Below are positions 8,672 to 55,404 of a DNA stretch of 64,000 nucleotides, in pieces. The translations under genes and the position numbers were made by a program. Under the pieces are notes generated by a model, which was not told where the DNA came from, made no database searches, and saw nothing but the letters and a program-made list of their open reading frames with translations. Source of the stretch: Opitutia bacterium (GTDB lineage Bacteria > Verrucomicrobiota > Verrucomicrobiia > Opitutales > Opitutaceae). The stretch lies in assembly GCA_947474365.1 (NCBI GenBank), contig CANJIU010000041.1:1-64000 (forward strand). The letters run 5' to 3'. Every line of letters starts with the position of its first letter. The stretch's first letter is position 1.

Positions 8672-10417
8672 ATGACCTTTTTCCGCCTTCTCCTCGCCAC
8701 GCTGACCGCCTGCGGCATCGCAGCCGTCGCCACCGTGGCCGCCGCCGCAGCCTCGCGGCCGAACATCATTCTGATCATGACGGACGATCAGGGCTACGGC
8801 GACCTCAGCATCCACGGCAATCCAGTGCTGGAGACGCCGCATCTCGACGCGTTCGCCCGCGGCAGCGCGACGATGAAGAACTTCCACGTCAGCCCCGTGT
8901 GCTCCCCCACCCGGGCCAGTCTCATGACGGGTCGCTACAACTATCGTACGCGCGTCATCGATACGTTCAAGGGACGCTCGATGATGGACCCGGCCGAAGT
9001 CACCGTGGCCGAATTGCTCCGCGGGGCCGGATACGCGACGGGCATTTTCGGCAAATGGCATCTCGGAGACAATTACCCGATGCGACCCACCGACAAGGGA
9101 TTCGAGGAGGCACTGACGATCCGGGGTGGCGGCCTCGCCCAGCCCTCCGACCCGATTGAAAACGACCGCCGCTACACCAACCCAATCGTGTTTCGCAACA
9201 ACCGGCAGGAGCAGGCGAAGGGATTTTGCACCGACGTGTTCTTCGACGGGGCGCTCGACTTCATCACGAAGTCCCAGCGCGCGGGCCGGTCGTTCTTCGC
9301 CTACCTCGCGCCCAACGCGCCGCACGATCCGCTCCACGACGTGCCGCCTGCCCTCTACGCTAAGTACAAGGCGAAGGATCTCACGTCGGTGCTGCTCGGC
9401 CAAGGCAAGGACACCGACTCCGTGGCGCGGATCTACGCCATGGTCGAAAACATCGACGAGAACGTCGGCCGGCTCATGGCCCGGCTCGAGGCGCAAAACC
9501 TCCTCGCGAACACAATCGTGATCTTCATGTGCGACAATGGCCCGGCAAGCCTGCGCTACGTCGGCCCCATGCGCGGCAAAAAGACCGAGCCCCTCGACGG
9601 TGGCATCCGTTCTCCCTTCTACGTCCACTGGCCGGCCCGGCTCAAGCCCGGCACCGCCAGCGATCGGATCGCGGCCCACCTCGATGTGCTGCCCACACTG
9701 CTCGACGCTGCGGCCGTTCCGCTTCCCGCCGGCCTGAAGCTCGACGGCCGCAGCCTGCTGCCTCTCCTCGAGGGCCGAAACGTACCCTGGCCGGATCGCA
9801 CCCTCGTGCTGCAATCCCACCGCGGCAACGCCCCGGCCGCCACGCACAACATGACCGTGCGCACCCAACGCTGGAAACTGGTCCATCCGACGGGATTTGG
9901 TCGCGAGACGCCGCCGCCGAACGCTCCCTTCGAACTCTACGAACTCCCGGTCGACCCAATGGAGAAAAACAACCTCGCCGCCAGCCAGCCCGAGGTCCTG
10001 CAACGGCTGCGCGATGCCTACGCCGCGTGGTTCGCCGACGTTTCCAACACGCGGCCGGACAATTTTGGTCCGTCACGGATCATCATCGGTTCGGATCACG
10101 AAACGACCACCGTGCTCACTCGCCAGAACTGGCGGGTGCCGGACACAGGCGACACCGGACGCGATGGCGCATGGCTCCTCCGGGCCGAACGGGACTCCAA
10201 TTACTCGGTGGAACTGCGCTGGTTGAAACCGATCGCGCCTGGCACGATCGAAATCCGCGCGGGCGACATCGTGCGCACGATCGATGTTCGCGACGCCACC
10301 GACCGCGTCACCCTCGACGGTCTGCGCATTCCCCGGGGAGAACTGGCCTTCAGCGCGACGCATCACGCCGGCAAGACCCACGAAGGCGCGTACCACGCGA
10401 CGTTGATCCGGCGGTAG
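8672..10417 (+). CDS. Secreted sulfatase (formylglycine type)
   Basis: The ATG at 8672 lies 11 nt after the receptor stop and gives a 581-residue protein with a Sec signal peptide (about residues 1-27). The catalytic core is RPNIILIMTDDQGYGD, C77-S-P-T-R-A-S-L-M-T-G-R (the CxPxR formylglycine site), GKWHLGDNYP and CDNGPASLRYVG. After about residue 470 a C-terminal beta-rich segment follows (YSVELRWLKPIAPGTIEI), which could be an accessory domain. It is the last gene of the 1541-10417 run, which now has two sulfatases, two oxidoreductase/isomerase genes and a receptor but no obvious glycoside hydrolase. Confidence 0.9.
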   Translation: MTFFRLLLATLTACGIAAVATVAAAAASRPNIILIMTDDQGYGDLSIHGNPVLETPHLDAFARGSATMKNFHVSPVCSPTRASLMTGRYNYRTRVIDTFKGRSMMDPAEVTVAELLRGAGYATGIFGKWHLGDNYPMRPTDKGFEEALTIRGGGLAQPSDPIENDRRYTNPIVFRNNRQEQAKGFCTDVFFDGALDFITKSQRAGRSFFAYLAPNAPHDPLHDVPPALYAKYKAKDLTSVLLGQGKDTDSVARIYAMVENIDENVGRLMARLEAQNLLANTIVIFMCDNGPASLRYVGPMRGKKTEPLDGGIRSPFYVHWPARLKPGTASDRIAAHLDVLPTLLDAAAVPLPAGLKLDGRSLLPLLEGRNVPWPDRTLVLQSHRGNAPAATHNMTVRTQRWKLVHPTGFGRETPPPNAPFELYELPVDPMEKNNLAASQPEVLQRLRDAYAAWFADVSNTRPDNFGPSRIIIGSDHETTTVLTRQNWRVPDTGDTGRDGAWLLRAERDSNYSVELRWLKPIAPGTIEIRAGDIVRTIDVRDATDRVTLDGLRIPRGELAFSATHHAGKTHEGAYHATLIRR

Positions 10418-10469
10418 GCGAGGGTTTCACCGACACGACGATCGAGCTCGGCACCGGTTCGTCTGGAGG

Positions 10470-10516
10470 CGCAACGCCCTCGTCGCGGTTTCGATCCACG
10501 CGACGAGGGCGTCGCG
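10470..10516. repeat. GC-rich palindromic repeat family A, copy 1
   Basis: Two 18-nt arms face each other: 10470-10487 (reads CGCAACGCCCTCGTCGCG) and 10499-10516 (CGCGACGAGGGCGTCGCG), separated by an 11-nt loop GTTTCGATCCA. Similar palindromes occur at 45956-46002, 48147-48196 and 55167-55213. It lies between the ends of two convergent sulfatase genes. Confidence 0.85.
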
Positions 10517-10594
10517 TCCCCAGGAAACAGTCCGGAGAGTCGCGTCGGGCACCGCGGATCGCTCCATTGTCTCAGAGGGCGTACAAGAAAGGCA

Positions 10595-10691
10595 TGTCAT
10601 TCTGAGCGTAGCGAAGAATCCAATTTGACCTTCGCGGCGTTTTCAGAGGAGCGAACGTCTTGATGGATTCTTCGCTGCGCTCAGAATGACA
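10595..10691. repeat. Inverted repeat of the TCATTCTGAGC type
   Basis: Arms of 28 nt at 10595-10622 and 10664-10691 are complementary with one mismatch. They begin TGTCATTCTGAGC and contain AGCGAAGAATCC. The 41-nt spacer is unrelated. From memory this motif is dispersed in many unrelated bacterial genomes. It fills the gap between the convergent sulfatases at 10417 and 10720; the rest of 10418-10719 shows nothing else I can identify. Confidence 0.8.
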
Positions 10692-45810: not shown

Positions 45811-46127
45811 GGCGAAGCGTCGGTGACCCTAGCCTACGCGCGCCGAAGATTGAAAGTCTTTTGGGAGTGGGAGGGACGCTGCGCGAATCGCCTCACTCGT
45901 GGGACACACGAAGAGGACAATCGACGGTCGCATCTCACTTTCTGGACCCTGGGGACGCGACGCCCCCGTCGCGTGGCTCGAAACCGCGACGAGGGCGTCG
46001 CGGCTCCAGCAGTTGCACGATGGTGGTCGATGCGGGATTCGCCGATCCGAAAAGCGGGTTGCGCTCCCTGCGGGCCACCCATCGGACTGCGGATTGACTC
46101 ACCGACAACGCAACCCATCCTAGGCCC
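45811..46127. other. Intergenic region holding palindrome family A, copy 2
   Basis: The 317 nt between the ROK-like gene (-) and the UPF0175 gene (+) contain the family A palindrome (45956-46002) within a longer block (about 45940-46060) that closely matches the reverse complement of about 55110-55235. Short frames through it read GDATPPSRGSKPRR, the same peptide as in the frame at 55000-55404. No independent gene is evident. Confidence 0.6.
45956..46002. repeat. GC-rich palindromic repeat family A, copy 2
   Basis: The 18-nt arms are 45956-45973 (CGCGACGCCCCCGTCGCG) and 45985-46002 (CGCGACGAGGGCGTCGCG) around an 11-nt loop TGGCTCGAAAC. The loop is the reverse complement of the GTTTCGA-type loop of copies 1 and 4, so this copy is inverted relative to them. 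Confidence 0.88.
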
Positions 46128-47876: not shown

Positions 47877-48146
47877 CTTGACAAACGCCAATTCCGATCG
47901 GGAAAGCGCCGCAGGGAGGGCTTCCATCGACCGGAACCGATCAGGTTCAACCCTCTACCACACCTCCGGTCCCAGAAATATGGCCTGCACTTGCGCGACG
48001 CGCGGCGTCGAAGCAATCCCACTGGATCGCCATCGCGTGACGCCAACAGTCAAACCGTTACGGGCGATCGGCGCGGAGCATGGAGGCGGCCGAGCGGACG
48101 GAAATAACGCCTCGGAGGATTTGGCCGAACTGAGTGCTCGGGAGCC

Positions 48147-48196
48147 GCGACGAATCGTTCGCGTTTTCAATCCACGCGACGAGGGCGTCGAGTCCC
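48147..48196. repeat. GC-rich palindromic repeat family A, copy 3 (decayed)
   Basis: The right arm CGCGACGAGGGCGTCGAG (about 48175-48192) and loop GTTTTCAATCCA resemble the other copies, but the left arm (CGCGACGAATCGTTCGCG, about 48147-48164) has diverged and pairs imperfectly. It lies upstream of the SDR gene end. Confidence 0.6.
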
Positions 48197-48250
48197 CCGT
48201 TTTCAAACACGGGTGTCGAAAGACTGGAAGCCCTCACCGCCGCCCGTTTT

Positions 48251-49102: not shown

Positions 49103-49149
49103 GGAGGAAAAGAAAATCGGGACGACCTAAGCCGGGACGATTCATTTGA

Positions 49150-49301
49150 ACCACGGATGGACACGAATAAACACGGATGCTCAGAGCAAGTCGTGCCGGT
49201 CCGTGCGGATTCCTGGCGGTCACCGTTCGGTGGCGTTTCGGATTTCCAACGGTGGCTGGTTCTCGCCTCTGTATCCGTGTCCATTCGTGTCCATCCGAGG
49301 T
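49150..49301. repeat. Inverted repeat of the ACCACGGATGGACACG type
   Basis: Arms of 29 nt at 49150-49178 (ACCACGGATGGACACGAATA...) and 49273-49301 (complement reads ACCTCGGATGGACACGAATG...) pair with three mismatches around a 94-nt centre. I recall the same end motif dispersed widely in bacteria. It is the first of three different repeats in the gap before uxaC. Confidence 0.75.
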
Positions 49302-49320
49302 TTTCTTCTGCTTGGTTGCG

Positions 49321-49460
49321 GCTAAGGGTGCGTCGGAAAAGACCACCGGCAGGTAGGGACGCTCCTCTGCTCTGAGGTTTCCGGTTTTCGGAACGAGACT
49401 CCCACCGGTCTTGCGGACGGCTCGGAGAGCCGTCCCTACCTTTTTCGACGCAGGCTAAGG
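49321..49460. repeat. Palindromic repeat family B, copy 2
   Basis: This matches copy 1 (134-263) along its length: GGTAGGGACG, CCGGTTTTCG, CTTGCGGACG and CTCGGAGA in the same order, ending CCTTTTTCGACGC. Terminal arms (GCGTCGGAAAAG and complement) are imperfect. GGCTAAGG occurs at both ends. Confidence 0.75.
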
Positions 49461-55003: not shown

Positions 55004-55404
55004 AGCGAAAATTTCTGCGTCTGGAGGCGGGGTCGTTTTACGGCAAGGCGGGGCGGTATTCGAAGGCTCCCCGATCCGGCGCGACGCCAGACGGGCGAGC
55101 GAGCGCAACCCGTTTTTTTTGGACCGGCGGAACCTGCATCGATCACCATCGCGCGACTGCTGGAGCCGCGACGCCATCGTCGCGGTTTCGAGCCACGCGA
55201 CGGGGGCGTCGCGTCCCCAGTGATCAGAAAATGAGATGCCACCGATCGGGCGAGGCCCGTCAAATCGGATTCCAGCGAAAGGTCGACGCCGGCACGATCG
55301 ATCGCGGCGCTGCCGACTTGCAGCGGGAAATCGGCCGCGGGCAGCATCGCACCCACGGTGAGCGATAGGAAAGCAAGGACCCGAATGAGGAGGCCGACGA
55401 ACAT
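55000..55404 (-). pseudogene. Short signal-peptide frame running through palindrome family A
   Basis: An ATG at 55404, only 5 nt after the receptor stop, opens a 134-residue frame with a plausible signal peptide (MFVGLLIRVLAFLSLTVGAM) and about 40 further ordinary residues (DFPLQVGSAAIDRAGVDLSL). It then runs straight through the family A repeat as GDATPPSRGSKPRRWRRGSS and ends at 55000 with an ATGA overlap with the Gfo/Idh/MocA start. It is either a gene truncated by the repeat or a gene that tolerates it in frame. I do not recognise the N-terminal part. Confidence 0.4.
55167..55213. repeat. GC-rich palindromic repeat family A, copy 4
   Basis: Arms 55167-55184 (CGCGACGCCATCGTCGCG) and 55196-55213 (CGCGACGGGGGCGTCGCG) with loop GTTTCGAGCCA. 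The longer surrounding block (about 55110-55235) is the reverse complement of about 45940-46060 with few differences. Confidence 0.88.

Follow-up and report, generated by a model that had tools for sequence, protein, structure and literature searches.

A REPIN with GG-tagged hairpins, partly carried by ISKra4-type MITEs, and its probable RAYT in an Opitutia bacterium

Introduction

What are the G+C-rich palindromes that recur between the genes of an Opitutia bacterium, and which machinery might have spread them? The question is posed by a 64,000-nucleotide stretch of DNA (the window), a part of contig C41 in an assembly of 10.35 Mb and 275 contigs (completeness 97.6%, contamination 7.4%). A preliminary description of the window, made from its letters, had reported four copies of such a palindrome and likened them to REP elements mobilised by RAYT transposases. 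Our answer, in which we place considerable confidence, is that the palindrome is a REPIN, that a RAYT of the same genome is bracketed by the same hairpins and would move the REPIN in trans under the guidance of a GG tag, that an ISKra4-type MITE appears to have captured it, and that the shift of the tag from GT to GG accompanies a substitution at the RAYT position corresponding to H101.

Results

The four palindromes of the window are pairs of converging hairpins

All four palindromes are present in the window. In pattern searches with shuffle controls, CGTCGCGGTTTCGANCCACGCGACG, with at most three mismatches, occurs three times there and not once in 100 dinucleotide shuffles, and CGCGACGNNNNCGTCGCG, with at most one mismatch, occurs seven times against 0.58 expected, a figure that 0 of 100 shuffles reached. 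The palindromes lie where they had been placed, but their proposed length of 47 nt was too short, as the full unit is wider and measures 61 nt. As had been stated, they occur in both orientations:

10463..10523, forward strand: REPIN copy 1, outside any MITE, beginning 46 nt past the end of a predicted gene (8672-10417); converging REPs at 10464-10487 (+; tagged TGGAG; 1 mismatch) and 10499-10522 (-; tagged TGGGG)
45949..46009, reverse strand: REPIN copy 2, inside the MITE 45926..46066; REPs at 45985-46008 (-; TGGAG) and 45950-45973 (+; TGGGG)
48139..48199, forward strand: REPIN copy 3, decayed, outside any MITE; REPs at 48140-48163 (+; 3 mismatches) and 48175-48198 (-; 2 mismatches)
55160..55220, forward strand: REPIN copy 4, inside the MITE 55101..55243; REPs at 55161-55184 (+; TGGAG) and 55196-55219 (-; TGGGG)

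Each unit is an inverted pair of REP hairpins around an 11-nt spacer, which between both REPs of the window copies reads TTTCGANCC. The first side consists of TGGAG followed by CCGCGACG-cccy-CGTCGCGG, and the second of TGGGG followed by ACGCGACG-cccy-CGTCGCGT. The 18-nt arm and GTTTCGANCCA loop of the preliminary description are both real, with the exception of the decayed copy, which reads TTTTCAATCCA at the loop and deviates from the REP consensus by 2-3 letters per REP. Because every copy consists of two converging tagged hairpins, the 18-nt arm is a complete hairpin by itself and thus more than one stem arm. The palindrome is consequently a REPIN, a dimer of the BIME type in which two REPs stand head-to-head with their tags pointing outward and a short spacer between them. 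Folded as single-stranded DNA and compared with 200 shuffles, three copies are far better than expected (z -7.2, -5.6 and -5.0); the decayed copy 3 does not stand out from its shuffles in this way (z -1.8; 9 of 200 were equally good).

When a loose pattern was applied to 40 further regions of the same genome, picked for exact half-REPs or sister REPs, 54 units emerged, 24 of them head-to-head dimers and 30 single REPs, with a few units visibly misassigned. The spacers in these regions vary in both letters and length, and the family found in the window (family A) therefore represents a single spacer type among a broader set of REPINs. The same architecture, REP, variable spacer and inverted REP, appears in 23 rows from related genomes; since both REPs are kept there around other spacers, the REPs are the conserved units. 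One region departs from the dimer form: L324 (G000:C53:34453-34596) holds a head-to-tail array of four single TGGGG-tagged REPs with a 40-nt period.

Two further inverted repeats were seen in the window. One, at 10595-10691 just after REPIN copy 1, has arms of 41 nt around TCATTCTGAGCG(T/C)AGCGAAGAATC that are 85% complementary, and its core gives two matches in the window and 0 in 100 shuffles; the other, at 49149-49302, is AACCACGGATGGACACGAATAAACACGGAT with 30-nt arms that are 90% complementary. Searches of the window yielded 0 Rfam matches over the gathering score, and none for tRNAs.

A high-copy repeat found mainly in intergenic DNA

Far from being limited to a few places, the core of the repeat was found, with at most three mismatches, at 186 places of the genome (94 + 92), compared with 33 (14 + 19) for the reversed control; a half-REP with at most two mismatches was found at 244 places and its control at 0. 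Matches over 61 nt that are 95-98% identical to the consensus are spread over many contigs. For a closer inspection of position and flanks, we rely on 102 copies located by nhmmer in 406.6 kb including the window, after merging of 192 two-strand hits.

Codon-model gene calls place 102 of these 102 copies, among them all four in the window, between genes, in keeping with the placement first described; random 61-nt places were intergenic in 2270 of 10000 cases. The corresponding figures from a cruder caller are 86 of 102 copies and 1280 of 5000 random places. This cruder caller, which lacks a free choice of start, puts 15 copies inside genes and one partly so, and none once starts are chosen by codon score; we take these 15 cases as reading frames extended over the repeat. 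The value of 102 out of 102 is a best case, since gene ends that run into a repeat may have been cut short by the codon-model caller. Either way, the copies do not lie mainly inside genes.

These data leave next to no room for the notion that the palindromes are chance hairpins of a G+C-rich genome. Inverted repeats of low strength are indeed numerous in the window (207 pairs of ≥18 nt), yet a chance origin is refuted by the shuffle and reversed-pattern controls, by the long matches of high identity on many contigs, and by the intergenic bias.

A second reading would see in the hairpins transcription terminators or mRNA-stability elements that were selected at gene ends, with mobility being secondary. 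An intergenic location and strong hairpins are what it calls for, and such roles have been proposed for REPs (PMC3733652). The main prediction for an intrinsic terminator, a preference for convergent gene ends, failed: the 76 copies with both neighbours called lie between codirectional (44), divergent (20) and convergent (12) genes, and the corresponding numbers for every gap of 60-1500 nt within these stretches (n=145) are 85, 35 and 25. An intrinsic terminator is hence disfavoured. Moreover, the REPIN spacers vary, and copies inside MITEs have target duplications (see below). Taken together, we judge selection for terminator or stability functions to be an unlikely origin of the repeat.

An own-genome RAYT is bracketed by the same hairpins

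The window itself is devoid of a RAYT gene, as initially noted; the Y1 profile PF01797 matches at 12 places of the genome, 0 of which are on the window's contig. The search of the genome for a Y1 (RAYT-type) transposase did recover an intact gene on contig C25, and this gene stands between inverted copies of the repeat. The features of this locus (flanks in positions of locus L066) are:

C25:4681-5142, reverse strand: intact RAYT gene, 154 aa; PF01797; NF047646 97.4 bits (cut-off 80)
L066 1264-1303, forward strand: family A, half copy
L066 1331-1358, forward strand: sister REP B, whole
L066 1870-1897, reverse strand: sister REP B, whole
L066 1924-1979, reverse strand: family A

The order A(+) B(+) RAYT(-) B(-) A(-) thus forms an inverted bracket. 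The sister REP B reads TGGAG-CGGCGACG-cccc-CGTCGCCG; its pattern occurs at 85 places of the genome against 0 for the control, 62 of them with at most one mismatch, and 21 of the 23 places with two mismatches are A-type REPs. Neighbours of the RAYT gene are an RNase III gene (rnc) and a gene encoding a UvrB-interaction domain like that of Mfd.

Among solved structures in the PDB, the best relative of the C25 protein by sequence is the E. coli RAYT 4er8 (E 4.4e-6). The same entry is the best Foldseek match (E 5.1e-9) for the structure model (pLDDT 91.9) of the RAYT L211, which is 72% identical to the C25 protein. The C25 protein is accordingly predicted, from its sequence and from the model of its close relative, to be a RAYT with the HUH Y1 fold. 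The many intergenic copies and a genomic RAYT flanked by inverted palindrome copies lend support to the likeness to REP elements and their RAYTs that had been suggested for the window, and we infer from these sequence data that family A is probably moved by the C25 RAYT.

The genome encodes a second RAYT, on contig C219 (L067), which is flanked by a different, GTAG-tagged repeat. This GTAG-tagged family, GTAGGGACGGCTC-tcc-GAGCCGTCC, is also represented in the window near 164-245 and within 49320-49444, there at 49411-49439; the match is exact at 49415-49439 and has 3 mismatches at the other sites. To judge from the two loci, one genome holds two putative RAYT/REP pairs with differing tags.

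Many REPIN copies reside in an ISKra4-type MITE

Two of the four window copies, those at 45949 and 55160, are embedded in larger elements of about 140 nt:

45926..46066, reverse strand: ISKra4-type MITE with REPIN copy 2; bounded by the decayed TIRs GAGCGCAACCCGC.. and ..GATGCGACC; inverted-repeat match I1, 129 nt, 89%
55101..55243, forward strand: ISKra4-type MITE with REPIN copy 4; bounded by the decayed TIRs GAGCGCAACCCG.. and ..GATGCCACC

Their flanks bear no recognisable 9-bp duplication (3 of 9 letters at 45926..46066 and 1 of 9 at 55101..55243); both window MITEs have eroded ends, and a duplication can no longer be made out at either. The outer arms of the MITE are GGGCGCATCCCGC..TTTGGACA... 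and ...TGTCCAGAAATTGAGATGCGCCC. Both arms accompany 39 of the 102 located copies, 28 have one arm (15 the left, 13 the right), 32 have none, and three abut a contig end, one of these with a left arm. Over the 39 copies with both arms, a 9-bp duplication is detectable as an average of 3.74 matches versus 2.32, the top of 300 shuffles being 2.89; no signal was found for duplications of 7, 8 or 10 bp over the same copies. At least seven of the nine letters agree in 8 of the 39. In L003 (G000:C25:103565-103941), three MITE-REPIN units follow one another in tandem at a period of 159 nt, and the contig end cuts off the third.

The ends of the MITE recur in an ISKra4-family IS, of which the genome has a whole and a partial copy:

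G000:C1:182916-184433 (L133): ISKra4-family IS, 1518 nt; transposase of 484 aa, 224.2 bits (cut-off 205); own 9-bp duplication GTTTGAGCT
G000:C184:1-1082 (L138): second ISKra4 IS copy, left part only; reading frame lost near the contig start

These elements are the likely source of the MITE ends. Because copies of the REPIN lie in MITEs with ISKra4 ends and a 9-bp duplication, one REPIN seems to have been spread by two transposase systems, and the 39 of 102 copies with both arms make it probable that the RAYT was not the sole spreader.

Is the palindrome, then, just the inner part of an ISKra4-type MITE, with the solo copies as MITE remnants and the RAYT as a bystander? The 39 copies with both arms, the 28 with one, and the 9-bp duplications would all fit. 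Against it stand the 32 copies without either arm, which favour another spacer (CA 15, CG 9, other 8) than copies with both arms (CA 5, CG 30, other 4). Furthermore, the REP pair recurs in relatives with other spacers, and MITE arms were discerned by eye in just 3 of the 23 rows (two from G017, one from G025). Both A copies at the C25 RAYT lack MITE arms. We therefore regard an origin as a mere MITE interior as very improbable; the simplest history, as far as sequence comparison can tell, would be that one REPIN was captured by an ISKra4 MITE and then multiplied by that transposase. The same REPIN-in-MITE chimera exists in G017.

Occurrence of repeat and RAYT in related bacteria

Across 57 genomes (own included), the A consensus matches at E ≤1e-3 in 16, all of the same family as our genome, and the C25 RAYT has a match at E 1e-10 in 31. 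The two are only loosely linked, a point against the RAYT as the mover of the repeat: G002, G018 and G019 possess family A without a C25-RAYT match at E 1e-10; conversely, G004 carries a close RAYT but lacks an A match at E 1e-3. The best-matching named RAYT records (L211-L217) are from Opitutus, Opitutaceae, Opitutae or Opitutia. An inverted repeat spans the RAYT gene in 13 of 18 loci, in at least one of which (L191) it is not REP-like, and further RAYT loci bear tagged hairpins with differing stems. The neighbourhood of the C25 RAYT (rnc and Mfd/UvrB-like genes) was not found in 28 loci of relatives; our own locus, used as the positive control, gave both genes. A search for empty sites within the genus showed that G013 keeps both neighbours of the copy at 55160 (86% identity for one of them), and that the gap between them is much shorter there and lacks the MITE, a case that is weak because the join is not precise. 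On a broader scale, the family model NF047646 detects RAYT-like genes at E 1e-12 in 167 of 288 Verrucomicrobiota genomes, 99 of which exceed the family cut-off, and the highest number of RAYT-like matches per genome is at least 13.

The second base of the tag appears to vary with a single RAYT residue

REPs have been defined by a GT[AG]G at the foot of the hairpin, a motif on which the published REP search is based (PMC6006769). The tag of family A is TGG[AG]G and so differs from this canonical form. We tallied the 4-mers beside hairpin stems at RAYT loci without presupposing any tag. In a first set of 98 loci, GGAG was present at 39, GTAG at 23, and the next 4-mer at 16, GG being over-represented there because these loci were found by their likeness to our own RAYT; in a second set of 87 loci, the order was GTAG (37), GGAG (16) and the next 4-mer (12). 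A GG[AG]G hairpin with an 8-bp stem and a 4-nt loop was picked at 34 loci, with TGGAG in 23 and another GG[AG]G form in 11. Their stems differ yet pair, at 93% versus 46% with shuffled partners, a value that is partly due to selection since the stems were found as hairpins. The GG tag might have been a GT[AG]G shifted by two bases (GTAG plus two bases); this was rejected, as a GT[AG]G stands just upstream in 14 of the 168 GG hairpins that come from non-His loci.

The tag was then set against the RAYT residue aligned to H101 of the E. coli protein. Hairpin ends in the first set, in which two duplicate pairs are included and the residue is other or unread at 10 loci, read GT 60, GG 22, GA 7 and GC 8 at His loci; GG 65, GT 3, GA 9 and GC 6 at Arg loci; and GG 60, GT 2, GA 8 and GC 7 at Thr loci. 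The second set was drawn after the predicted relation of tag and residue had been fixed. It comprises 90 loci from the 288 Verrucomicrobiota genomes, taken as best or next-best family-model matches and not at random; three already seen were dropped, and 0 of the remaining 87 proteins are ≥80% identical to any protein of the first set. Here, His loci gave 34 GT, 2 GG and 15 no call; Arg loci 8 GG, 1 GT and 17 no call; Thr loci 3 GG, 1 GT and 2 no call; and loci with an unread residue 2 GT and 2 no call. With duplicates removed, both sets combine to 53 His/GT, 5 His/GG, 43 other/GG and 2 other/GT (103 called of 180 rows). The exceptions are L183, L215, L260, L356 and L421 (His with GG) and L351 and L430 (non-His with GT).

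We read these counts as suggesting that His pairs with T and is also compatible with G, and that Thr or Arg pairs with G; the tag of the repeat and one RAYT amino acid thus seem to change in concert. On the tree, this association rests on about 4 residue changes and 8 tag changes, and a sign test on independent pairs, of which there are 3-4, was not significant. L183 and L215, RAYTs of our own clade with His at position 101 and clear TGGAG tags, are possible intermediates of the tag switch. H101 is discussed in PMC6006769 among the residues of the GTAG interaction; the same source mentions that, among subclasses whose REPs bear GT[AG]G, an R can take its place, which counts against the link. 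We nevertheless propose that the residue at the H101 position may cause the preference for the second tag base.

Discussion

Our data lend themselves to the following course of events. The RAYT, as an HUH Y1 single-strand nuclease, would recognise in single-stranded DNA, for every REP, both the hairpin and its GG[AG]G tag, with the residue equivalent to H101 of E. coli TnpA_REP presumably reading the second tag base. It would cut beside tag and hairpin, so that the REPIN could move in trans and re-integrate, a course that we modelled on previous RAYT work (PMC8266576; PMC3116915). For one RAYT, cutting at CT has been proposed to be determined by tag bases three and four (PMC8266576); both are retained in GGAG. 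One REPIN would have ended up within a miniature element whose termini are those of an ISKra4-family IS, and the ISKra4 transposase may then have multiplied the chimera, producing 9-bp target duplications. Mobilisation by a RAYT is here deduced from the arrangement of genes and repeats. Points against the scheme are the half copy of A on the left of the RAYT, the single REPs that made up 30 of the 54 loosely matched units, and a tag that departs from the REP definitions. A host function is not needed to explain the repeats, though they may have one.

A wider interpretation, which we advance tentatively and credit slightly less than we doubt it, extends this to a large RAYT/REP class in Verrucomicrobiota and some loci of neighbouring phyla. 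These systems would be guided by GG[AG]G where others use GT[AG]G. The second base would be read by residue 101, a T by His and a G by Thr or Arg, which would make this a single letter in a code of protein-DNA recognition; in our genome, the GG-guided REPIN would additionally travel in an ISKra4 MITE, and so be served by two independent engines. How RAYTs recognise their own REPs is described as being under study (PMC8266576), and natural pairs in which the second tag base and a single contact-region residue differ open recognition to a direct test by one swap.

The kind of element is known already, namely a REPIN with its RAYT; the GG tag and the MITE-borne copies are the variant form. Word searches of the CC-licensed PMC literature retrieved no publication on GGAG-tagged REPs or on REPINs inside MITEs. 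The letters GGAG occur inside GTGG- and GTAG-tagged repeats of PMC2817692. Because published searches rest on GT[AG]G (PMC6006769) or sort REPs by GTAG or CGTC ends (PMC3733652), families with a GG tag may escape them and could have been overlooked. The REPIN-in-MITE chimera, in turn, suggests a route by which a non-autonomous repeat may spread beyond the reach of its own RAYT.

Comparison with known systems

The REPINs and BIMEs of Pseudomonas fluorescens SBW25 and E. coli (PMC3116915; PMC2817692) are the closest models for the repeat studied here. They, too, consist of inverted REPs around a variable spacer that form a long hairpin, are intergenic and of high copy number, have a cognate RAYT flanked by the same repeats, and form tandem clusters with their flanks, as in our array with the 159-nt period on C25. 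Differences lie in the GG[AG]G tag, which replaces GT[AG]G, and in the many copies that reside in an ISKra4-type MITE. The GTAG repeats of Opitutus terrae (PMC3733652) come from what we take to be the same bacterial family and include dimers with outward tags (the HH type of that paper), and our genome has a GTAG family of its own at the second RAYT on C219. Families in PMC3733652 have degenerate second and third bases (GYAG, GYRG, GTRG and GTMG, with GTGG in O. terrae GTAG-20), but GGAG is found nowhere as the start of a word in the portion of that paper compared here. With E. coli TnpA_REP (PDB 4er8), its best PDB match by sequence and, through the L211 model, by fold, the RAYT shares the HUH motif PDHVH, the WQ, an acidic residue at position 100 and R104; unlike the E. 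coli protein, it has R at the position of H101 (T in the sister clade) and a length of 154 aa. Finally, the MITEs resemble the ISKra4-family IS and the MITEs derived from it in the terminal repeats of the local ISKra4 IS and in the 9-bp target duplication, and they differ in their cargo, which here is the REPIN of another transposase system.
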